From: Bacteroidales bacterium
GTDB taxonomy: Bacteria; Bacteroidota; Bacteroidia; Bacteroidales; PUMT01
Direction: 5' to 3'
Assembly: GCA_007132225.1 (NCBI GenBank)
Contig: SLPB01000091.1
Location: 1 to 43,578 of the forward strand
Length of the DNA: 43,578 bases
The notes under the pieces were generated by a model. The model ran no database searches and was not told where the DNA came from. It saw nothing but the letters and a program-made list of their open reading frames with translations. Every line of letters begins with the position of its first letter. The stretch's first letter is position 1. Both the position numbers and the translations under genes were made by a program. Shown here one piece after another: positions 29,941-40,006 of the stretch.

Positions 29941-30810
29941 TCAGACATTTGCATCAAGATAAAGGGCAGCAGCTCCAAGCAAGGCAATTTCCTGGGTTTG
30001 CGTGGTTACTATTTGTAAATTTTCGACTGAGCGGGGATAAGGAAAGTCCCTGATCTCATTCCACATTTCATCACTGTACAGCTCAAAAGATTCGGCAACC
30101 CCGCCTCCCATTATAATGGCCGCAGGATCGACAGCCAGCATTATGGTTTTAATGGCTTTCCCAAGATGATGACCGAATTCATCATATGCTTTTAATGCCC
30201 GCGGATCATTTTCCCTGGCCTTTTTCGCCATTGCCTCCCCGCCTTCATTGTAAACATTTGGGAAAAACTGCCCGCTGCAATAATACTCATATATTTGGTC
30301 CAGATAGGGTATCTCACCAAACTCCCCGGACCCGCAATTCCTGTCAGGCATAAGGTGTCCGTTCTTTATTATCCCTGCACCCAGTCCGGTGCCACATATC
30401 AGCCCCACAAAATCTTCATGTTCCCTGCCTTTACCAAAAAATCGTTCTCCCACGGCAAAGCAGTTGGCATCATTGTTAATATAAACAGGAATGCCAAATT
30501 TATCTTCCAGAATATCCTTTAAAAATACTTCTTCCCACGAGGGTATGTTCTGAACATTGTAGACAATTCCTTTTTCAGAATCGACCAGGCTGGGCACACC
30601 AATTCCGATACCTGCCACCTCTTTATCAATTACATTGGTAATGAGTTTAATTAAAACATCTGTAACTTCATTGGCGTCATCAGTTTTGGGCACAAAATCA
30701 GAAGCTATAGTATCAACAGCATTATTTTTTATCTTGCCGGTCCTGATTTTTGTACCTCCCATATCAACCCCAATGATGGTCTTACCTGTTACTTTCTCAC
30801 TAATTTTCAT
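29941..30810 (-). CDS. ROK family sugar kinase (glucokinase-like), zinc motif absent
   Basis: 289 residues. The phosphate-1 motif GVDMGGTKIRTG (14-25), the catalytic base Asp114 (INNDANCFAVGE) and GTGLGAG (140-146) are intact, so it should phosphorylate a hexose or amino sugar with ATP. In ROK proteins a GHxxV-type His and a CxCGxxGCxE cluster usually bind zinc. Here the segment reads GEFGEIPYLDQIYEYYCSGQ and has neither, so it belongs to the metal-free branch common among glucokinases. It is 103 bases downstream of the pantothenate kinase gene, same strand, perhaps co-transcribed. Confidence 0.85.
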   Translation of the reverse strand: MKISEKVTGKTIIGVDMGGTKIRTGKIKNNAVDTIASDFVPKTDDANEVTDVLIKLITNVIDKEVAGIGIGVPSLVDSEKGIVYNVQNIPSWEEVFLKDILEDKFGIPVYINNDANCFAVGERFFGKGREHEDFVGLICGTGLGAGIIKNGHLMPDRNCGSGEFGEIPYLDQIYEYYCSGQFFPNVYNEGGEAMAKKARENDPRALKAYDEFGHHLGKAIKTIMLAVDPAAIIMGGGVAESFELYSDEMWNEIRDFPYPRSVENLQIVTTQTQEIALLGAAALYLDANV

Positions 30811-30913
30811 ATTATTATTATTTTAAAAAGTTATGAAATATTTAATCTCCTGTTTATAATCAAATTTTATTTTAGCCAGGGTTTTCAACATGAACCTTTA
30901 AACTTCCATCAAC

Positions 30914-31747
30914 TCACAAGCAGGCCCTATCCCCCACGAGCGAAATTGAATATGCAGAGCCAACGGCGGTGCAATATTCAGCATAATCGGGAATTATGAA
31001 CTTTTTTCCGAATACTTTCCCCAACCTGTTGAAAATCTTAACAGCCTGGGGAAGCTTGACAAGTTTGCCGGTCAGAACAATCTCATCTGCCTTTTCTTCC
31101 CTTGATGAGAATACTCCCATCATACCTATGGACTGGCAAACCAGGTTTATAAGTCCGAGTGCCAGATCAGCCTGGCTGGCTTTATCAGAATGTTTCCCAA
31201 AGTTGGATGCAGTTGCAGAAAAAGGGATGTTCCCCATCTCAACCTGAGATATATCCCTTATGTTAAGATCCACATTGCCCAGATTCCCTTTTGCTGCTAA
31301 ATCAACAATATTCTGAAAATCAGTTGAATTCAGAATATACCTGGATAAACCAATAAGCGTACCACCTCCTATCCCGGACCCCCCAAGATGCCTTATTTCA
31401 TTGCCATCTGCAAGAACTATGGCTGTGCCTGTTCCCATACTGATGACCACTGCCTTTTTCAGGCCCGCAAGAAACAGTCCGCCATGCCCAATTGCAGTAA
31501 ACTCAGGAACCCTTCTGACAGGAATACCGAACAGTTCCTTACCTATAGAATCAGCTCCCACGCCAGTTACGGCAATGGTTTCAATATCTCTTAGCTTAAG
31601 GGAGAATTCATCCGTGAATTTTCCCAGTGCACCTGAGGCAGAAGTAACGGGATCATCTGCCTGAACAGAAATAACGCCACAAATCCGGGCCTTTCTAAAA
31701 CCCGCAATTTTAGTTGTGGTTCCGCCAATATCTATCCCAAGCACCAT
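30914..31747 (-). CDS. Type II pantothenate kinase-like (CoaW/fumble family)
   Basis: 277 residues from the ATG at 31747. The longer in-frame start at 31804 lacks homology. MVLGIDIGGTTTKIAGF (1-17) is the ASKHA phosphate motif, GVGADSIGKEL and VISMGTGTA are consistent with type II pantothenate kinases, as is GGSGIGGGTLIGLSRYIL. It phosphorylates pantothenate, the first step of CoA synthesis. Most Bacteroidota rely on type III (CoaX), so a type II-like enzyme is worth noting; whether CoaX also exists cannot be seen here. Confidence 0.78.
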   Translation of the reverse strand: MVLGIDIGGTTTKIAGFRKARICGVISVQADDPVTSASGALGKFTDEFSLKLRDIETIAVTGVGADSIGKELFGIPVRRVPEFTAIGHGGLFLAGLKKAVVISMGTGTAIVLADGNEIRHLGGSGIGGGTLIGLSRYILNSTDFQNIVDLAAKGNLGNVDLNIRDISQVEMGNIPFSATASNFGKHSDKASQADLALGLINLVCQSIGMMGVFSSREEKADEIVLTGKLVKLPQAVKIFNRLGKVFGKKFIIPDYAEYCTAVGSAYSISLVGDRACL

Positions 31748-31876
31748 AATAATGTAATTGTCCGCCAAGATAAAAAAAAAACTTAAGTTTCCTGAAACTT
31801 TCATCCCCGCTTCCCAACTTTATGCCAGGGTTTTTAAACTATTAACCTGAAAAACAAGATGCAGCCCAAAACCAGC

Positions 31877-31911
31877 AACCGGGAATTCATTAAAAAAACA
31901 AATTCCCGGTT
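31877..31911 (-). terminator. Hairpin downstream of the Trx-TrxR fusion gene
   Basis: aaccgggaatt (31877-31887) and aattcccggtt (31901-31911) form an 11-bp stem with a 13-base A-rich loop. The T tail on the minus strand is weak (ggttttgg), so terminator function is likely but not certain. It ends the leftward RiPP-like locus. Confidence 0.55.
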
Positions 31912-32039
31912 CATGAGCCTTTAATATTCAACTTTCTAAAGCATCATGATGATTATGCCCCAGGTTTAACAATAAATAACTATCCCTGAGATCTGACCGG
32001 GGAGAATGGACTTAAAGGGATGTTCATGGTACCTGCCAA

Positions 32040-33308
32040 TCACTCGATCTCTTTTGTTATGGCAATGGCGGCAATTGTTCCGTCGGCGACGGCAGTGGTG
32101 ATCTGACGATACTTTTTGCTGTTTATGTCACCTACAGAATAAACACCCTTTATGCTTGTCTGCATATCTTCATTGACCTTAACATAACCCCACTGGTCCA
32201 GCTCAAGCTCGTCATTAAAAACAGAAAGATTGGCCCTTAACCCTATAAAAACAAATACCCCGTCTGTTACCAGGGTTTTTCTGTTTCCTGTTTTAAGATC
32301 TTCCACCTCAACCTCCATCTTATCACCACGGCTTGAAAAGGACCTTGGTTCATGCTCAAACATGAATGATATCGCGGGATTGGAAAAAGCTTTCTCCTGT
32401 GCCATCTTGTTGGCCTGCAAGGTATCAAACTGATGAACTATGGTGATCCCGGAGGCAAACTTTGAAATAAATGCCGATTCTTCAATTGCCGAGTTGCCTC
32501 CGCCAATAATGACAACCTCTTTGCCTTCGAAATACTTGGCATCACAAGTAGCGCAATAGGAAATGCCCTTACCCATAAATTCCTGTTCACCGGGTATATT
32601 AAGTTTTCGGGGAGTTGTGCCTGTGGCAATAACTATTTTTTTTGCCTTTATAGTTTCATAATCGTCAATGACTATCTCTTTTTTTACCAGATCAACCTTG
32701 GTCACATCTACGGCCACCTTATAAATTGTACCGCATCTTTTTGTCTGTTCAGACATGTTGTGTGAAAGCATAAATCCGGGCTGAGGCTCAATAAATCCCG
32801 GGTAGTTTGATATCATATGTGTTGTCGCCATATAGCCCCCGGGAAGGGCCACATCAATCAGGGTTGTATTAATTTTGGCCTGGCAAAGGTATAAACCTGC
32901 CGTCAACCCTCCGGGCCCTGCACCCAGAATGGCAACATCAGTTTCGGTAAAAACGGGCTCCATGCCGGAAAGCTTTTTTTCCACCTTTACCCTGCCAATA
33001 AGATGGCCTATTTCCCTGATAATATCCGAGCGCTTTATACCACCTGCAATTCTCTGGCAAACCTCCTTGCCGCCTTCATAAAAAAGCAGTGTTGGCGATG
33101 ATTTTACTCCAAGGGCTTCTGACAGGTCCCTGTTGCCCTGACGGAATATTTTAACAAACCTTATATCATCTGAAAAAAGATTCTCCAGGCTCTCCAGCTT
33201 GGGAGCCAATGCTTCGCACGGCGGACATTCTGTTGAATAGAAATCCACCACCACCGGTCCCCCGCTGTTTATAACATCGTTATATTCCTTAGAAGTAATT
33301 TCCTGCAT
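32040..33308 (-). CDS. trxB: Thioredoxin-thioredoxin reductase fusion
   Basis: 422 residues from the ATG at 33308. The N-terminal 105 residues are a thioredoxin fold with the redox motif STECPPC (Cys28 and Cys31). A full NADPH thioredoxin reductase follows: FAD motif GAGPGGLTAG (129-138), active-site CATC (Cys252 and Cys255) and NADPH motif GGGNSA (269-274). GVYSVGDI near the C-terminus is the second FAD signature. The fusion channels electrons from NADPH through the reductase cysteines to the thioredoxin domain. It follows the radical SAM gene by 177 bases, so a common transcript is possible; a reductant would suit the Cys-rich neighbours. Confidence 0.9.
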   Translation of the reverse strand: MQEITSKEYNDVINSGGPVVVDFYSTECPPCEALAPKLESLENLFSDDIRFVKIFRQGNRDLSEALGVKSSPTLLFYEGGKEVCQRIAGGIKRSDIIREIGHLIGRVKVEKKLSGMEPVFTETDVAILGAGPGGLTAGLYLCQAKINTTLIDVALPGGYMATTHMISNYPGFIEPQPGFMLSHNMSEQTKRCGTIYKVAVDVTKVDLVKKEIVIDDYETIKAKKIVIATGTTPRKLNIPGEQEFMGKGISYCATCDAKYFEGKEVVIIGGGNSAIEESAFISKFASGITIVHQFDTLQANKMAQEKAFSNPAISFMFEHEPRSFSSRGDKMEVEVEDLKTGNRKTLVTDGVFVFIGLRANLSVFNDELELDQWGYVKVNEDMQTSIKGVYSVGDINSKKYRQITTAVADGTIAAIAITKEIE

Positions 33309-33485
33309 CGCTTTAATATTTAAGTACAACACTGACTTTATAAGTATATTTTTTTGCCTTTGCAAATGGACCTTATCAGGTATCACCTGGCTTAAAGCCA
33401 AGGCTTTATGGACATTACTATAAAAATATTTTCATTCTATATCGCGGGTATCTTAAAAAAAATATTGTCCGGGACGGCTCATCAG

Positions 33486-34808
33486 TTACTGCTCATTGTC
33501 AATTTCTTCTTGTCTGAAATAGGCAGATATCCCCAGTTCAAGCAACTCCCTGACCGGCCGGCAATCAGGACTATTGTGCATGCCCGTCCGGTTTTTGGCT
33601 ACTGCAGCACAGCCACCTCCGCAGAGCACGCCAAGATTACAATCCCTGCATTCCTTTATAGATAAGATATCCCTTTCAGACCACTGCTCTATTCTTTCAT
33701 CATACATGAACCTTTCGGGGAAAAACTGGCCGAGCTCTTCACCCTTTTTTCCAACTGTAGCGGTACAGGCATATATGTTACCTGTGAAATCAAAAGCCCA
33801 TTCAGTTTTGGTGCCGGGACAGGAATCAAACATTGGCGGCGGTAATTCACCGTGCTCGGACAAGTGCCTGGCAACTGAAAAAGCAGGTTTGTGAAACTCT
33901 CTTATGTGGGGATGCTTTATGATGAGCTGGTATATATCATTGTACATCTCCAGGCGGGAAAAAAGCCTTTCCCTGTTCACCTGGCATTCATGCAACTCGT
34001 AGTTTCTGCCAAGTTGTGTACTCATAAAGGGTGATTTTGTCCAGCCCCGGTCAATGGCAAAACTGGCCAGATCCGGTAACCCCAGTATGTTATCCCGGTC
34101 CACAACAACCCTGAGATTAACAGGGATACAATTATTCAGCAAAAGATCAATCCCCTTAACAATCCTGTCAAAACTGCCCCGTCCGTTTTTAAGGTAACGT
34201 CTATTGTCGTGAACATCTCTGATTCCGTCCAGAGTGACCTGCACCTCTCTTATCCTTGCCTTTTTTAACAGATTAATGTAATCAGCTATATGATAACCGT
34301 TTGTTACCACCGCTATATCAATATCCCGTTCTGCAGCCTTTTCAATAATCCTTTCTACAAGAGACCTGTGCCTCTTACCCGGCATAAGAGGCTCGCCGCC
34401 AAAAAGGGTAATGTATTTGCGACGACCGGCAAAAGCCAGGTCAATATACTGGTAAAATGAATCAATCACCGCTTCGTTCAGACTGCCCCCACTTTCAATA
34501 TATTCAGACTGGTAGCAATAATAACAGCCAAAATTACAGTTATAGCCGGTTACAAAAAACAACTGTATCTCATCACTTTCCCTTTCATCCACAAACCTGA
34601 GGTATGCATTGCGGAATTCAGCTTTTTCATAATCCGGATCAACAATATAACCGCGTGAGATCAATTCTTGTCTTGACAGGTTTCCATTAAGCAGCCCGGT
34701 GTAAGTATCACTTTCAATAATATCAGCAATGCCATACAAGGAATTAATAATAAAATACTTATCAGAGTCTTTTACCCGGGAGAAAATATTGAATCCGGAA
34801 AATTCCAT
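33486..34808 (-). CDS. Radical SAM/SPASM peptide maturase-like protein
   Basis: 440 residues. Residues 1-80 (FIINSLYGIADII ... ISRGYIVDPD) match the N-terminal region of RiPP-maturing radical SAM proteins, which usually contacts the leader. The radical SAM cluster is C91-NFG-C95-YY-C98 with GGEP at 137-140. The SPASM signature is complete: Cys330, G343-x4-Cys348, Cys387-x2-Cys390-x5-Cys396-x3-Cys400, then Cys416. Two auxiliary Fe-S clusters are therefore expected. It should install thioether, C-C or similar crosslinks in a peptide. A 31-residue Cys peptide lies 64 bases upstream. Sulfatase maturation is an alternative but the N-terminal region argues against it. Confidence 0.88.
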   Translation of the reverse strand: MEFSGFNIFSRVKDSDKYFIINSLYGIADIIESDTYTGLLNGNLSRQELISRGYIVDPDYEKAEFRNAYLRFVDERESDEIQLFFVTGYNCNFGCYYCYQSEYIESGGSLNEAVIDSFYQYIDLAFAGRRKYITLFGGEPLMPGKRHRSLVERIIEKAAERDIDIAVVTNGYHIADYINLLKKARIREVQVTLDGIRDVHDNRRYLKNGRGSFDRIVKGIDLLLNNCIPVNLRVVVDRDNILGLPDLASFAIDRGWTKSPFMSTQLGRNYELHECQVNRERLFSRLEMYNDIYQLIIKHPHIREFHKPAFSVARHLSEHGELPPPMFDSCPGTKTEWAFDFTGNIYACTATVGKKGEELGQFFPERFMYDERIEQWSERDILSIKECRDCNLGVLCGGGCAAVAKNRTGMHNSPDCRPVRELLELGISAYFRQEEIDNEQ

Positions 34809-34872
34809 AAACGTTTCCCGTTTAAATGATTATCCATTTATACCTGAAAAATAGAAGCAAAGCTTCATTCTT

Positions 34873-34968
34873 TCAATCATGACATCCGGCGACGAACTTT
34901 GATTTTTTTGCACAACATTGCGCCTGTGTGGTCTTTTTCTCGTTCTTTTTTATGGTAAGGCTCTTCAT
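34873..34968 (-). CDS. Short Cys-containing peptide, probable radical-SAM precursor
   Basis: A 31-residue frame from an ATG at 34966-34968 to TGA. It begins MKSLTIKKNEKK and ends CCAKKSKFVAGCHD, so Cys are at 18, 19 and 29, with 8 Lys. The lysine-rich MK-x-L-x-IKK opening is typical of leaders of Bacteroidota ribosomal peptide natural products, although the GG cleavage motif is absent. The stop lies 64 bases before the radical SAM start. An in-frame ATG at 35004 would add 12 residues but begins almost at the predicted transcription start. No homology search was possible; a chance frame cannot be excluded. Confidence 0.6.
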   Translation of the reverse strand: MKSLTIKKNEKKTTQAQCCAKKSKFVAGCHD

Positions 34969-35017
34969 AATAGATAAATGATATTTGTAAATTATAGGAT
35001 TCATATATACCAATACA

Positions 35018-35025
35018 CAAAATTA
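35018..35025 (-). promoter_or_regulatory. Candidate -7 promoter element of the peptide gene
   Basis: The minus strand reads TAATTTTG here, an exact fit to TAnnTTTG. It lies about 50 bases upstream of the peptide ATG. No good -33 TTTG was found at 19-21 bases upstream, so the promoter is tentative. It separates the peptide gene from the methyltransferase gene. Confidence 0.35.
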
Positions 35026-35123
35026 ATCAAAATAATAAATCTGCCTGGTACAGGGAATCACCACCGGCTGTGCATCTCTGTCCAAACCTTTATAACAATA
35101 TTATAAAAATTATCATCAACAGT

Positions 35124-35747
35124 CTATTTATTGCCTGATAATGTGAAGCTGCAAACCATGATCTTTCCTTTTTCATATGGCCTGCTCTCTTCAATTATTT
35201 TTATCTCTCTGAACCCTGCACCTTCAATTGCGGACAGGTATTCATTCAGGGTAACAGCCCCGGCCCAGCATTCAGAAACAGCGACGGGGTCTGAACTGTA
35301 CTCAGGGGGCACGGGTTCCTGCGAATAGATGTCGCTTACTACAAATCGTCCGCCATATCTGAGGATGCGGTAAATCTCATTCCATACCGCATCCTTGCGG
35401 GATACATGATTAATTACGCAATTTGAAATAACCAAATCAGCCATTTCATCTTTAAGTGGAATATCCTCCAGCTCTGTTAAAATAAACTCTACATTTTCAA
35501 TACCAAGTTTTTTTGCTGCAGAGCGCCCCTTGCTGACCATTGCAGGGGTAGCATCTATTCCATAAACATAGCCTGTCTTTCCAACTGTTTCGGATAGCCT
35601 TAGTACATCCGTTCCACGGCCACTTCCCAGGTCAATACATATTTCTCCACTGCCAGCACCGCTTTTTTCAAACGCCCCCCCACAAGAAAGGCAACAGGAA
35701 TCATCGGCAAGTTTGGAATATCTTTTCCTGATTTCAAATTCCATCAT
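35124..35747 (-). CDS. arsM: ArsM-like SAM-dependent methyltransferase
   Basis: 207 residues from the ATG at 35747; the frame also opens at a TTG at 35777. The SAM motif is DLGSGRGTDV (39-48). Three conserved Cys of arsenite methyltransferases are present: Cys18/19 in DDSCC (with Cys22), Cys110 in ISNCVINH and Cys160 in SECWAGA. The 50-residue spacing from Cys110 to Cys160 is the same as in characterised ArsM (Cys174 and Cys224). ArsM methylates As(III) held by these thiols. It is short compared with ~260-280 in typical ArsM. The gene lies 155 bases upstream of the peptide, in the same orientation; thus a substrate other than arsenic is possible. Confidence 0.7.
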   Translation of the reverse strand: MMEFEIRKRYSKLADDSCCLSCGGAFEKSGAGSGEICIDLGSGRGTDVLRLSETVGKTGYVYGIDATPAMVSKGRSAAKKLGIENVEFILTELEDIPLKDEMADLVISNCVINHVSRKDAVWNEIYRILRYGGRFVVSDIYSQEPVPPEYSSDPVAVSECWAGAVTLNEYLSAIEGAGFREIKIIEESRPYEKGKIMVCSFTLSGNK

Positions 35748-36193
35748 TATTAAATGAAATAAATTTATTCCTTTCAAAGATACATTACAATTTTGAAAAA
35801 ATATAACATAATATAATTATTCCAATATCTGTATATAACCCAACCGGATTTCCCCCGGAAAGGATAATTACACGGTTATTGACATGGCTGGCATGCATAA
35901 AATATCAATGATCAAAAGCCCATCCATTTAGGCTTTACCGTTAATTTAAATTTGGTTGTTTTTTCTAAAATTTATAATTTTCAGATTCTTTAGGATTGTT
36001 TTAAATTAAATATTAATAATATTATTAAATAATTATCCGTCTTTATAACATTAATCCATCTTCATTACGGCAGTTTAAACGGTTTTTTAATTAAGAACAG
36101 TTTCTATTTATAATGCCTGCTGGCCAGGCTCTTATTTTTCTAAAAATGAATTCAAAACTATACAGTCAAGTTTAACTTTTTAAATATGTTACT
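35748..36193. other. Divergent intergenic region
   Basis: 446 AT-rich bases between the ArsM-like gene and a rightward oxidoreductase. It contains a TAnnTTTG-type element taaatttg (35947-35954) for the + strand, but no good -33 partner. An 18-codon minus-strand frame exists at about 35858-35914, without support. No RNA gene seen. Confidence 0.4.
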
Positions 36194-37531
36194 ATGAGTG
36201 AGTCAAGAAGATCTTTTATTAAAAAATCTGCATTTGGAGTTGCGGGAATGACTATTGGAGGAGCCGGCATGAGTGCCAACAGTTATAATAAAATAATCGG
36301 AGCTAACGACAGATTAAATGTTGCTGTTGTTGGGCTCGGAAGGAGACTGGGAGCTTTCCCTGAACCAATAGCCATGAAGGAAAGCAATGTGCGTCTGCTA
36401 TATCTTTGTGATGTAATGAAAAGTCAGCGTGAAAAAGCAGCTGAAAGATTTTCAAAAGTTATTGATTATTCGCCTGCCCTGGAAAATGATGTGCGCAGAA
36501 TTTATGATAATAAACAGGTAGATATTATGATTGATGCCACTCCTGACCACTGGCACGCCCCGGGCACCGTTTATGCTGTTAAGTCAGGCAAGCATGTGTA
36601 TGTTGAAAAACCCTGCAGTCACAATCCCCGCGAGGGAGAGATCCTGGCAGATTTGCAGAAAAAATACAAAAAGGTGATTCAGATGGGTAACCAGCAACGT
36701 TCATCCCTGGAATCAATAGAGATAATCAGGGATATCCACAACGGGGCAATAGGTGTACCATATAAAGCCACTGCATTCTATAGCAATTCAAGAGGCAGGT
36801 CTCCAGTACCAGTATCAGCTCCTGTCCCTGACGGACTGGACTGGGATCTTTGGCAGGGCCCTGCTCCACGCCGGGAATATAAACACAATACCTGGGATTA
36901 CCAGTGGCACTGGTATGGATGGACCTGGGGAACAGCAGAGACCGGTAATAACGCGGTACATGAACTGGATGTTGCACGCTGGGCATTGCAGGTAGATTTC
37001 CCTGAAAGAGTAGATGTTGCATCAGGTAAATTTCATTTCCCTGATGATGGATGGACAATGTACGATACTATGGATGCAACATTCACTTTTCCCGGAAATA
37101 AGATCATTCAGTGGGACGGTAAAAGCAGAAACGGTTACAGGACATATGGTGCCGGAAGGGGAACCATCATATATGGCTCCGAGGGATCTGTATATGTTGA
37201 CAGGAGAGGTTACAAACTATTTGACCGCGATGGTAATCTTATCAGGGAAAGAGAATCAGGGGGGACCGAAGGAGGAGTTGCGCTGGGTGGTGGCGGAAAT
37301 ATGACAACCATGCATGTTTATAATTTCTTCGAAGCCGTAAGAGGCAAGGAAGTTTTAAAGTCACCCATTGACGAAGGTGTTAAAAGTACGCATCTCGGAC
37401 ATCTGGCCAATATTTCTTCACGTATAGGCAAAGGTTTTGATGTCAACCACCTTAACGGACAGGCGCTGGACCGTGACGCCCTGAAGCTTTGGAGCCGGAA
37501 GTACGAGTCCGGATGGGAACCTGAAGTGTAA
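36194..37531 (+). CDS. Tat-exported Gfo/Idh/MocA family oxidoreductase
   Basis: 445 residues. A Tat motif SRRSFIK (4-10) and a Gly/Ala-rich hydrophobic stretch are followed by the Rossmann motif VVGLGRRLG, and DATPDHWHAPGTVYAVKSGK plus VYVEKPCSHNP is the classic motif with the catalytic Lys of EKP. The C-terminal half carries a DUF-type oxidoreductase domain with many Trp (DWDLWQGPAPRREY, WHWYGWTWGTAETG). These exported enzymes appear in glycan-degrading regions and act on sugars, but individual substrates are rarely known. Monocistronic, ending at a terminator. Confidence 0.88.
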   Translation: MSESRRSFIKKSAFGVAGMTIGGAGMSANSYNKIIGANDRLNVAVVGLGRRLGAFPEPIAMKESNVRLLYLCDVMKSQREKAAERFSKVIDYSPALENDVRRIYDNKQVDIMIDATPDHWHAPGTVYAVKSGKHVYVEKPCSHNPREGEILADLQKKYKKVIQMGNQQRSSLESIEIIRDIHNGAIGVPYKATAFYSNSRGRSPVPVSAPVPDGLDWDLWQGPAPRREYKHNTWDYQWHWYGWTWGTAETGNNAVHELDVARWALQVDFPERVDVASGKFHFPDDGWTMYDTMDATFTFPGNKIIQWDGKSRNGYRTYGAGRGTIIYGSEGSVYVDRRGYKLFDRDGNLIRERESGGTEGGVALGGGGNMTTMHVYNFFEAVRGKEVLKSPIDEGVKSTHLGHLANISSRIGKGFDVNHLNGQALDRDALKLWSRKYESGWEPEV

Positions 37532-37568
37532 CCCTTTTTAAGTTTCGGGTTGCAGCCTCGATATTATC

Positions 37569-37608
37569 TGAACCGCAAGTGTTTATTTAAGCTTGCGGTT
37601 CATTTGTT
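37569..37608. terminator. Terminator between convergent genes
   Basis: tgaaccgcaag (37569-37579) and cttgcggttca (37592-37602) form an 11-bp stem with a 12-base loop, followed by tttgtttt. It serves the rightward oxidoreductase gene and probably also the leftward GDPD gene, which stops 10 bases later. Confidence 0.8.
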
Positions 37609-37617
37609 TTCCAGGGC

Positions 37618-38430
37618 TTACTGGTTTTCCAGGAACTCCCTGATTTCTCCAGGTTTATCGGTGGTAATTGACATTGCGCCGTATTCCCTGAACCGGGCAG
37701 CATCTTCAGGTTCATTTACAGTCCAGACATGGTATTCATATCCTGCCTCAATAATCCTGGTAATATAGTTTTGATCAATCCGTCGAAAATTGGATGAAAA
37801 CCCATCAGCTCCAATATATTTAAGCGTTTCAAGAACAGTTTCCACATCCGGGTTAATATTACCTGATTCATCCTCACGGAAACCCGATAACCAAAAGGCC
37901 TTATGCTCCGGCCTGGCTGATTTGAACTCTTTTATGACCTTGGAATTGAAGGATATAATTACTATTTGATGGTCTTCAAGTCCGGATTCATCGATAACTT
38001 CATAAAGGCGGGGCAATATTACAGTGTCGTCTTTTATCTCAACAAATATTTTTTTGTCCCGGGGCACAATCTCAAAAACTTCTGAGAGTGTGGGGATAAC
38101 AGTTCCCTCCCATTCCGGGCCTTTCCATGATCCTACATCAAGCTGCCTGAGCTCCATTAAGGAAGACTCCTTTACAACCAGATCCTTACCGGCAACCCTG
38201 CCTGTAGACCGATCATGTATGCAAACAATTTCACCATCTGCAGTCAGAAAAAAATCACCCTCAATTGCATCAGCATCCTGTTCCCAGGCAAGCATGAAAG
38301 CAGGAATGGTGTTTTCCGGGGCATCCCAGGATGCACCCCTGTGTGCGACAATTTCAGGAATATAAACCTTTTCAGAGCATCCTGCCCCGGCGAATAGTAT
38401 TGCCATGGCGATAAATATAAATTTGTTCAT
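37618..38430 (-). CDS. Glycerophosphodiester phosphodiesterase lipoprotein
   Basis: 270 residues. Lipobox AGAGC ends at Cys18, so it sits on the envelope. The GDPD active site is visible: AHRGASWDAPENT (His30, Arg31, Glu39), IEGDFFLTADG (Glu57, Asp59) and IHD (His72). It cleaves glycerophosphodiesters from lipid head groups to glycerol-3-phosphate and an alcohol using a divalent metal. Its start is 33 bases past the stop of the upstream lipoprotein gene; they are probably one operon. A close-to-typical length for the family. Confidence 0.9.
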   Translation of the reverse strand: MNKFIFIAMAILFAGAGCSEKVYIPEIVAHRGASWDAPENTIPAFMLAWEQDADAIEGDFFLTADGEIVCIHDRSTGRVAGKDLVVKESSLMELRQLDVGSWKGPEWEGTVIPTLSEVFEIVPRDKKIFVEIKDDTVILPRLYEVIDESGLEDHQIVIISFNSKVIKEFKSARPEHKAFWLSGFREDESGNINPDVETVLETLKYIGADGFSSNFRRIDQNYITRIIEAGYEYHVWTVNEPEDAARFREYGAMSITTDKPGEIREFLENQ

Positions 38431-38463
38431 AGTTATAAAAAATTTGTTATAATTATGTGTAAA

Positions 38464-39276
38464 TCAGGGAGCAAATTCAAGCTCCAGCCACAACCTTGTT
38501 GGCCGGGATAATTCTCCCATATTTTCAGATCTTTGTTGCATCATCCCACTATCCGGAAACCTTTGTGGCACCTGGCCGGACATGCGGCCTCCTGGTGTGG
38601 TGCCTCCCCGGGGTCTTCTTCCGTAATCAGGAGCCGCTGACCGGGAAGATGAGGGAAGCTCAAAAAATCCGGTTTCAAGTCCTATATTCATTGAGGTTCT
38701 CCCTGCAAGCGGGTTGAACCCGAACTTCAATAATTCAAAAGGAACAACGGCTTCATAGAATAACATATTTTCAATTCTTTCAGCACTCACCCTGATTTGG
38801 CTGTCCCGCATCCTGAGAGTTCTTGTGGAGCTTCCGTAAATACCAATAAGATCAACTTCATCAGCTCTTTCAAGCAATGCATTTACCGGACCAATTTTGT
38901 AACCCATCATCGAAAGATTGATATCCCTTCCGGAAGGATCACCGGTTATTCTTGCCCCCCGGGGAAACCGAAAACCCTGCTCTTTATTTTTACCTCCAGT
39001 CCTGTCAATCCATACTGTAAATCCAAATTGAGCGATTTTTCTCTGCAAATTCTGATTGAAAGTTGCTAATGTAATATAAAGATTACTGTTATCATACTCA
39101 AACAAATAATAAAACTCGCTCTGTTCATGATAACCCATCTGTTCGGTTAATCCAACCTTTTCTTCGTTGGTCAGCCTATGTTTGCCGGCCTCTTTCTCAG
39201 AGACAACAGCCCTGGGTGTACTACACCCGGCCAATGCCAGCACAACTAATGAAACCATGGAGATAAAAACCCTCAT
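38464..39276 (-). CDS. Lipoprotein of unknown function, DOMON/CBM9-like
   Basis: 270 residues. Lipobox LALAGC ends at Cys18. The middle (YYLFEYDNSNLYITLATFNQ, then FGFTVWIDRTGGKNKEQGFR and FPRGA) is a beta-sandwich pattern seen in CBM9- and DOMON-like proteins. Residues about 210-255 are low complexity, rich in Gly, Arg, Ser and Pro (SSSRSAAPDYGRRPRGGTTP), probably a flexible tail, and a final strand (RLWLELEFAP) follows. Located directly before the GDPD gene. I cannot name a ligand. Confidence 0.6.
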   Translation of the reverse strand: MRVFISMVSLVVLALAGCSTPRAVVSEKEAGKHRLTNEEKVGLTEQMGYHEQSEFYYLFEYDNSNLYITLATFNQNLQRKIAQFGFTVWIDRTGGKNKEQGFRFPRGARITGDPSGRDINLSMMGYKIGPVNALLERADEVDLIGIYGSSTRTLRMRDSQIRVSAERIENMLFYEAVVPFELLKFGFNPLAGRTSMNIGLETGFFELPSSSRSAAPDYGRRPRGGTTPGGRMSGQVPQRFPDSGMMQQRSENMGELSRPTRLWLELEFAP

Positions 39277-39664
39277 ATATTATATTTTAAATTATCCTGG
39301 GTGAAACTTTAATTTGTATTAAATATATTTATCAATTTATTTAATAATATGCTGCATATTCACATAACGGCTAATATGTGCTTCAATCCATGGATACCTC
39401 ATGTAAATACACTGCATTTTGTGAGACAAAGCGACATGAGGTATTAACAAGTAAATATTTAACAAATCCCTGCAAAGTTAGTATATTTATTCTGTAAATA
39501 TTTTTCAAAGATCCCGGCAGGAACCAGGCTGTATTTTATTTATAAATATAAATCGTCATTTAATTATATTTGTTGTTTGCGAGCAAAAAAACTCACTATT
39601 ATTTTTACTGGCTATTTTAATTATCAATCCGGCAATAATACCTGTGAACATTAAATTTTCAATC
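39277..39664. other. Divergent intergenic region
   Basis: 388 bases between the lipoprotein operon and the cupin gene. It contains an inverted repeat (listed separately) and a -7-like tatatttg at 39565-39572, about 90 bases before the cupin ATG. Otherwise AT-rich, no gene. Confidence 0.45.
39394..39444. repeat. 11-bp perfect inverted repeat with 29-base spacer
   Basis: atacctcatgt (39394-39404) and acatgaggtat (39434-39444) are perfect complements. It may be an operator pair or a hairpin in a leader. It is 118-168 bases upstream of the lipoprotein ATG, on the far side from that gene. Confidence 0.55.
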
Positions 39665-40006
39665 ATGTCAACATTACTATTCGACAAAACTCCCTGGGAG
39701 GTTGTAAAAAAAGGCCTTAAGCGAAAAATTATTTATACCGGAAACCTGATGAACGTATTAATAGAATTTAGCGATGGTCCCTGGGACCATCCCGAACCTT
39801 ATCATTCTCATCCTCATGAACAGACCTCATATATCGCTGAGGGTGAAATCCTGTTTTTTTATGACGATGAAAAGGAACAGCATCTCAGGAAAGGAGATAT
39901 GTTTGCAGTGCCTTCAGGTATAAAGCATACCATTCAATTGCTGACCAGAGAGGCAAGGCTGGTGGATAGCTTTACTCCCCTGAGAGAAGAATTTTTAAAA
40001 AAATAA
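39665..40006 (+). CDS. Single-domain cupin protein
   Basis: 113 residues from the ATG at 39665; the frame also opens at a GTG at 39644. HPEPYHSHPHEQTSYIAEGE (cupin motif 1, with metal-type His and Glu) and the shorter motif 2 (MFAVPSGIKHTIQL) are both present, so a metal is likely bound. Such small cupins act as isomerases, dioxygenases or sugar binders; the role here is unknown. It is 85 bases ahead of the sulfatase gene on the same strand, so the two may be co-transcribed and the cupin might process a product of sulfated glycan breakdown. Confidence 0.8.
   Translation: MSTLLFDKTPWEVVKKGLKRKIIYTGNLMNVLIEFSDGPWDHPEPYHSHPHEQTSYIAEGEILFFYDDEKEQHLRKGDMFAVPSGIKHTIQLLTREARLVDSFTPLREEFLKK

Follow-up and report, generated by a model that had tools for sequence, protein, structure and literature searches.

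The window, i.e., the whole stretch of 43,578 nucleotides analysed here, carries on its minus strand a short open reading frame between the genes of an ArsM-like methyltransferase and a radical SAM/SPASM protein. The features of this locus, ordered by their coordinates, are the following:

32040 to 33308, minus strand: thioredoxin-thioredoxin reductase (Trx-TrxR) fusion of 422 aa, downstream and in the same direction
33486 to 34808, minus strand: radical SAM/SPASM maturase of 440 aa, with CxxxCxxC at 91-98 and a seven-cysteine SPASM pattern
34847 to 34866, minus strand: hairpin GAAGC-TTT-GCTTC and then a T-run, immediately past the peptide stop; short, a possible partial terminator
34873 to 34968, minus strand: 31-aa RiPP precursor-like peptide MKSLTIKKNEKKTTQAQCCAKKSKFVAGCHD, from ATG to TGA, with a leader of approximately residues 1-15 and a near-invariant core of residues 16-31
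35018 to 35025, minus strand: TAATTTTG, a match to TAnnTTTG, 57 nt upstream of the peptide ATG (position -57)
35124 to 35744, minus strand: short ArsM-like methyltransferase of 206 aa, with C17, C18, C21, C36, C109 and C159 invariant in 21 aligned homologues

The peptide frame and its conservation

The frame had been proposed as an unannotated gene from a reading of the sequence alone, and on re-reading, its 31 residues, its cysteines (Cys18, Cys19 and Cys29) and the 64 bases (34809-34872) between its stop and the SPASM ATG at 34808 were all found as described. With an upstream TTG as start the frame would comprise 46 aa, but it is the ATG that is conserved. The length of the frame alone is unremarkable, with 13 ORFs of at least 20 aa overlapping positions 34700-35200, and because short frames are common by chance, the case for a peptide gene rests on its homologues.

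The last 16 codons were compared in a set of 69 sequences, all different at the nucleotide level, which had been chosen by a pattern requiring cysteine and a GC[HN]D end. Ten residues occur without exception in this set, whose conserved positions were partly fixed by the GC[HN]D pattern (A-16, C-14, C-13, A-12, K-11, S-9, G-4, C-3, H-2 and D-1), and each of them uses two to four synonymous codons. A pattern-free search of 164 loci with the peptide profile was positive at 120, where the peptides have 44 distinct C-terminal tails with the consensus AQCCAKxSxxxAGCHD. The A, CC, A, K, G, C, H and D are constant in the 44 tails, serine is replaced by threonine once and glutamine by leucine twice, and CC...GCHD is kept at 120 of 120 loci. 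All cysteine codons in the 69 sequences are TGT or TGC, so the peptide cysteines are not selenocysteines; the accessible part of a selenoproteome review contains ArsM-type selenoproteins and no such peptide (PMC13188914).

Pooled pN/pS was 0.139 for the C-terminal 16-codon block of the 69 sequences, 0.124 in 11 full-length copies resembling those of the window's genus, and 0.440 in the N-terminal versus 0.103 in the C-terminal part of 36 distinct 31-codon genes, all of these ratios being rough because the synonymous sites are saturated. The other sense frames are interrupted (+1 in 69 of 69, +2 in 61 of 69), and on the antisense strand 25, 17 and 12 of the 69 sequences are open, depending on the frame. 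Judged from these comparisons, the frame is not a chance ORF, its translation is under selection, and the purifying selection is concentrated on the cysteine core. The cysteines and the reading frame, whose loss among homologues had been named as an argument against a gene, are thus both preserved.

Most peptides of the family are 30-38 residues long. Among 82 distinct peptides, 61 contain three cysteines, one contains four and 20 contain five, the latter through an added N-terminal pair, and in all 82 the distance from the first core cysteine to the last cysteine is 11 residues. The added pair (MKSVVKKSCxCN or SCC) marks one branch comprising L030, L033-L038, L041 and similar loci. The window peptide has no GG, as the sequence-only reading had noted, and only 2 of the 82 homologous peptides contain one. 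The likeness to Bacteroidota peptide leaders suggested in the same reading was not borne out, as it does not extend beyond the first residues and is accompanied by neither a GG nor a family match. Searches with the window peptide gave no match at E 1 in Pfam and NCBIfam (June 2026) and none at 0.001 in PADLOC and PHROGs; of five homologous peptides compared with NCBIfam none scored above a cut-off, one matching trifolitoxin at E 0.12.

The TAnnTTTG element that had been claimed upstream is present as TAATTTTG at 35025-35018, and we take this motif to be the Bacteroidota -7 promoter element. It occurs within 200 nt at 12 of the 69 loci, compared with 7.6 in shuffles, which is no clear overall enrichment; in the window's genus it lies at -41 to -57 in 6 of the 11 loci of the 69-sequence set. 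The promoter element is weaker evidence than the conservation of the peptide. A hairpin with a T-run follows the peptide stop at 19 of the 69 loci, compared with 1.4 in mononucleotide shuffles, and would fit a peptide level above that of the maturase; the hairpin sequences are not alike from locus to locus. The Spirochaetes members L044, L054, L057 and L058 have an AGGAGG ribosome site before the ATG. An Rfam scan of positions 30000-40000 gave nothing at the gathering threshold.

The maturase, the methyltransferase and their linkage to the peptide

The SPASM protein belongs to the Pfam family Radical_SAM, and both its CxxxCxxC motif and its SPASM cysteines are invariant in 28 aligned maturases. 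Among the best 25 of 80 NCBIfam models, none reached its own cut-off with this protein. The best one is TIGR04463, which describes radical SAM/SPASM RiPP maturases and matches over nearly the full length, but with 151.4 bits against a cut-off of 525, a comparison made by the maturase alone. The CefB model gave 146 bits (cut-off 600) and TIGR03974 gave 84 bits (cut-off 425). The AlphaFold model of the maturase has a mean pLDDT of 75, with a poor SPASM region, and its best PDB matches are 5WHY and 5WGG, presumably the thioether maturase CteB, followed by SuiB and sulfatase maturases. The modelled N terminus consists of three strands and then helices, a predicted fold that we infer to be compatible with a RiPP recognition element (RRE). 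The system resembles CteA/CteB and the SCIFF ranthipeptides, which likewise combine a SPASM maturase with a short, cysteine-rich precursor and whose N-terminal leader-binding region has a putative counterpart here. It differs from them in the low TIGR03974 score, in having three core cysteines instead of six, in the near-invariant core and in its ArsM-like partner. A PADLOC viperin match of the SPASM protein was set aside, as it looks superfamily-level, and a plasmid collection contained no match to the protein at E 1e-30.

The methyltransferase shares the fold, the SAM region and three metalloid-binding cysteines with ArsM/AS3MT. The 13 best PDB chains for its model (pLDDT 89) are all As(III) methyltransferases, and its C21, C109 and C159 align with C72, C174 and C224 of the algal CmArsM, which we take to be the arsenic-binding cysteines of that enzyme. 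However, it is short, with 206 aa compared with 321-387 aa in the solved relatives, it has an extra C17-C18 pair that is invariant in 21 homologues, and with 186.2 bits it remains below the cut-off of 263 for the arsenite methyltransferase model NF008823. In addition, bit scores across 295 genomes separate these cognate methyltransferases (at least 256) from other ArsM-like proteins (at most 179), and the cognate form is present solely in genomes that also have the peptide and the SPASM enzyme. A separate full-length ArsM-like gene is located elsewhere in the window's genome (G000:C108), so the methyltransferase of the trio is not the only ArsM-like enzyme there. A second short ArsM-like methyltransferase (214-aa frame, 155 bits with the trio methyltransferase profile) was observed away from the peptide at G664:C86:19985-20584. 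The PADLOC mad2 match of the methyltransferase looks superfamily-level and was rejected.

A search with the SPASM protein returned 67 loci in named records with 50-66% identity, and a GCHD-ending peptide lies upstream of the SPASM gene in 61 of them, so that homologous loci do have a frame at this position. Of the six loci without it, five (L065-L069) begin within the SPASM gene, where the contig is cut, and the sixth, L063, is an incomplete locus close to the end of its contig. The record titles include Bacteroidales, Prolixibacteraceae and Paludibacter, as well as Spirochaetes (L044, L054, L057-L059) and one Myxococcota (L062), all 67 titles denoting MAGs, in which the latter two assignments could reflect binning errors. 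Strong SPASM orthologues were found in 16 of 60 relative genomes, the window's own included, and the peptide profile matched 17 of the 60, namely these 16 and G052.

In 295 genomes of the order, the peptide was found in 34, the SPASM protein in 34, the cognate methyltransferase in 33 and all three in 33 genomes, with thresholds of E < 1e-9 for the peptide profile, E 1e-60 or better for the SPASM protein and at least 256 bits for the methyltransferase. Four weak peptide matches (E 0.004-0.007) in this sample were discarded as noise; three of them contain internal stops. The peptide is thus co-inherited with the SPASM gene in 33 of the 34 SPASM genomes; the exception, G665, contributes just a SPASM fragment, cut by the end of a contig, and has no other member of the trio. 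G052 has the peptide only. Of 395 genomes sampled from the phylum, 6 have the peptide; one is the window's, and in each of the remaining five the gene order is methyltransferase, peptide, SPASM. Based on these order- and phylum-wide counts, the trio is rare, but its members are closely tied to one another. Among 112 peptide loci, many of them repeat fetches of one genome, the methyltransferase is upstream in 93; of the 19 without it, 17 are loci of the window's genus with little upstream DNA, mostly with a TonB gene in between, and 2 belong to G052. The distance from the peptide to the start of the SPASM match varies from 1 to 630 nt.

The precursor reading is supported by the near-strict co-occurrence, the adjacency and the selection on the cysteine core, and the peptide is very probably the substrate of the SPASM enzyme. 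The original suggestion of an unannotated, precursor-like peptide beside a radical SAM gene is therefore strongly supported.

Neighbouring genes and genomic context

The Trx-TrxR fusion has its thioredoxin domain in front of the reductase and shows, by eye, a CPPC thioredoxin active site. From 77 peptide loci, 28 with nearly complete 13-kb flanks were selected, L062 being left out by hand. The Trx-TrxR fusion and the methyltransferase were found at all 28, DUF1847 at 16, a disulfide-oxidoreductase-rhodanese fusion at 12, rhodanese at 10, SQR-like genes at 6 and DUF302 at 2. In 18 control windows of 20 kb, taken from one contig of G017 alone, an SQR-like gene was found once and each of the other families not at all; as the families were picked for recurring at peptide loci and their models built from the same loci, these counts describe clustering and are not a blind test. 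The SQR-like genes, which score below the SQR model cut-off, are only weakly enriched (6/28 versus 1/18).

A Pfam scan covered 103 of 122 selected flanking proteins, with the SPASM, methyltransferase and Trx-TrxR clusters excluded, and gave 58 families, with sulfur and thiol-redox families among the 25 commonest; DUF1847 was counted 20 times, Thioredoxin 18 and Rhodanese 15. These 25 include no family for arsenic transport, reduction or regulation, and no peptidase or exporter, TonB receptors (3 members) being the sole transporter type. Beyond the methyltransferase, no further biosynthetic enzyme is conserved in the neighbourhoods listed. Sulfur-handling genes lie near many loci, but not near the window's locus nor beside the peptide in the window's genus. 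Proteins of the DUF1847 family are repeatedly encoded next to the system, e.g., at L015:3719-4267 and L027:8271-8738. Anywhere in the genome, DUF1847 is present in 1 of 13 genomes of the window's genus, and among the 60 relatives in 5 of 17 with the peptide versus 7 of 43 without it, a weak difference. No paper naming DUF1847 was found in the open-access literature.

G052 represents an orphan case, in which a peptide with an intact core (G052:C3:120298-120393; L109:7296-7394) occurs in a 99% complete genome where neither the SPASM enzyme nor the cognate methyltransferase was found. Its contig carries QmoC-like, HdrA-like and DsrE2-like genes, all below NCBIfam cut-offs, together with DUF1847, a DrsE_2 domain above the Pfam cut-off, and TusA-like and SQR-like ORFs read by eye. 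Either maturation is not required everywhere, or the G052 copy is a relic.

The mercury-methylation protein HgcA scored above its cut-off in 7 of 33 trio genomes versus 10 of 261 others (Fisher p 0.001, lineage effects included; G665, which is HgcA-positive and has the contig-cut SPASM gene, was left out of the count). The positive trio genomes are G053, G497, G573, G574, G600, G604 and G631. A link to mercury methylation was set aside, since most trio genomes are without HgcA and the seven positive ones carry it on a contig other than that of the trio; the excess is more simply explained by a shared habitat.

Interpretation of the peptide system

We propose that the ORF is the precursor gene of a new RiPP family, with a core modified by the SPASM enzyme and a product that acts as a retained cytoplasmic thiol carrier together with the ArsM-like methyltransferase and Trx-TrxR, a reading to which we assign a probability of about 0.45, i.e., somewhat below even odds. 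In this mechanism, the 440-aa SPASM enzyme would recognise the short MKSLxxKK leader and modify the core AQCCAKxSxxxAGCHD, most likely at its cysteines. The modified peptide would be neither cut nor exported and would stay in the cytoplasm, where it may serve as a small thiol carrier for thiophilic species such as sulfane sulfur or As(III). The short ArsM-like methyltransferase could receive it or methylate it, and the adjacent Trx-TrxR fusion would keep it reduced. Selection on translation, the near-strict three-gene association, the fold classes and the redox neighbourhood can be read from the sequences themselves. The near-constant core, the lack of a common protease or exporter, the thiol reductase, the metalloid-type methyltransferase and the frequent sulfur neighbours point to an intracellular modified thiol peptide. 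Bacteriocin cores vary, unlike the near-constant core found here, which, together with the ties to the methyltransferase and to thiol redox, suggests a physiological role in sulfur or metalloid handling, not an antimicrobial one.

No description of a radical SAM peptide with this cysteine core, of an ArsM-SPASM RiPP pairing or of TIGR04463 was found in the open-access literature, nor an on-topic report linking ranthipeptides to arsenic or RiPPs to sulfane sulfur. Large radical SAM atlases may include the maturase as an uncharacterised cluster. The trio is not mentioned in the accessible part of a survey of Bacteroidales RiPPs (PMC10352776). According to the accessible text on DsrC, Cys100 and Cys111 lie near its C terminus and the last cysteine carries sulfur (PMC3397948). 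The window peptide similarly has two cysteines 11 residues apart near its C terminus (Cys18/Cys29), which is an analogy only, as the peptide is free, has an extra adjacent cysteine and a CHD end, and no homology is shown. Bufferins and thiooxazole metallophores are described, in the portions available of the respective papers, as RiPPs for metal handling and not for killing (PMC12452194; PMC12668002), but their makers are MNIO enzymes and not radical SAM enzymes. A bolder proposal, which we regard as doubtful, is that the peptide may act as a thiol coenzyme that is encoded by its own gene and modified by a radical SAM enzyme. Comparable to glutathione or to a free-standing DsrC arm, it would shuttle sulfane sulfur or a soft metalloid from one thiol-redox enzyme to another in anaerobic bacteria, and the ArsM-like enzyme would have been repurposed to the peptide or its cargo.

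Because of the methyltransferase, arsenic handling is a serious rival, albeit an unlikely one. The three cysteines would coordinate As(III) as a tris-thiolate and deliver it to the ArsM-like enzyme, the peptide taking the place of glutathione as thiol donor, while Trx-TrxR would supply electrons. Ligation of one As(III) or a similar thiophile had already been suggested in the sequence-only reading and is possible in view of the ArsM fold of the neighbour and its arsenic-binding triad, invariant in 21 aligned methyltransferases. Another ArsM-like gene is also commoner in genomes with the trio (18/33 versus 65/262, uncorrected for relatedness). However, arsenic families are missing from the 25 commonest of the flanks, the window's genome already has its separate ArsM-like gene, simple binding would need no radical SAM step, and in G052 the peptide persists, with sulfur genes on its contig, although the cognate methyltransferase is missing.

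The peptide could also be the scaffold for a small cofactor that is excised, as in the PQQ or mycofactocin pathways. The near-invariant core, the SPASM maturase and the occurrence in several phyla, as judged by record titles, are consistent with this, but the 25 commonest flank families contain no peptidase for the excision, and the neighbourhoods listed contain no conserved biosynthetic enzyme apart from the methyltransferase, so we consider it quite improbable. An exported metallophore or signalling RiPP that is taken up by a TonB receptor of the window's genus has, in our view, a slim chance. In 9 of 11 peptide-bearing genomes of the genus, the gene immediately upstream of the peptide encodes a TonB-dependent receptor (L004:3329-5632, L006:3532-5784, L070-L077 and L079; in L004 and L006 between methyltransferase and peptide), which hints at transport and counts against the retained carrier, and 21 of the 82 peptides have extra N-terminal cysteines, a pair in 20. 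Against this, the window's own locus has no such receptor, the receptor models match only the genus member L004 among the 28 well-flanked loci, the peptide has no cleavage motif, and the 25 commonest flank families contain no conserved peptidase or exporter. A regulatory leader peptide or chance ORF is very improbable, since, although cysteine-rich short ORFs can serve as leader peptides and the hairpin is in excess after the stop, such a role would need neither the invariant C-terminal GCHD nor the near-strict coupling to the SPASM and methyltransferase genes, and both the peptide-SPASM gap and the hairpin sequences differ between loci.

Evidence against any single reading, including that of a retained thiol carrier, comes from G052, from the lack of sulfur neighbours in the window's genus and from the weak association with DUF1847. 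The family has been missed by the family libraries searched, with a precursor of only about 31 codons, and its near-constant core spans Bacteroidota and MAGs labelled Spirochaetes and Myxococcota. It represents a small, testable three-gene system from mostly uncultivated bacteria, and if the proposed function is true, RiPPs would gain a new role, that of a cofactor carrying sulfur or metalloids.
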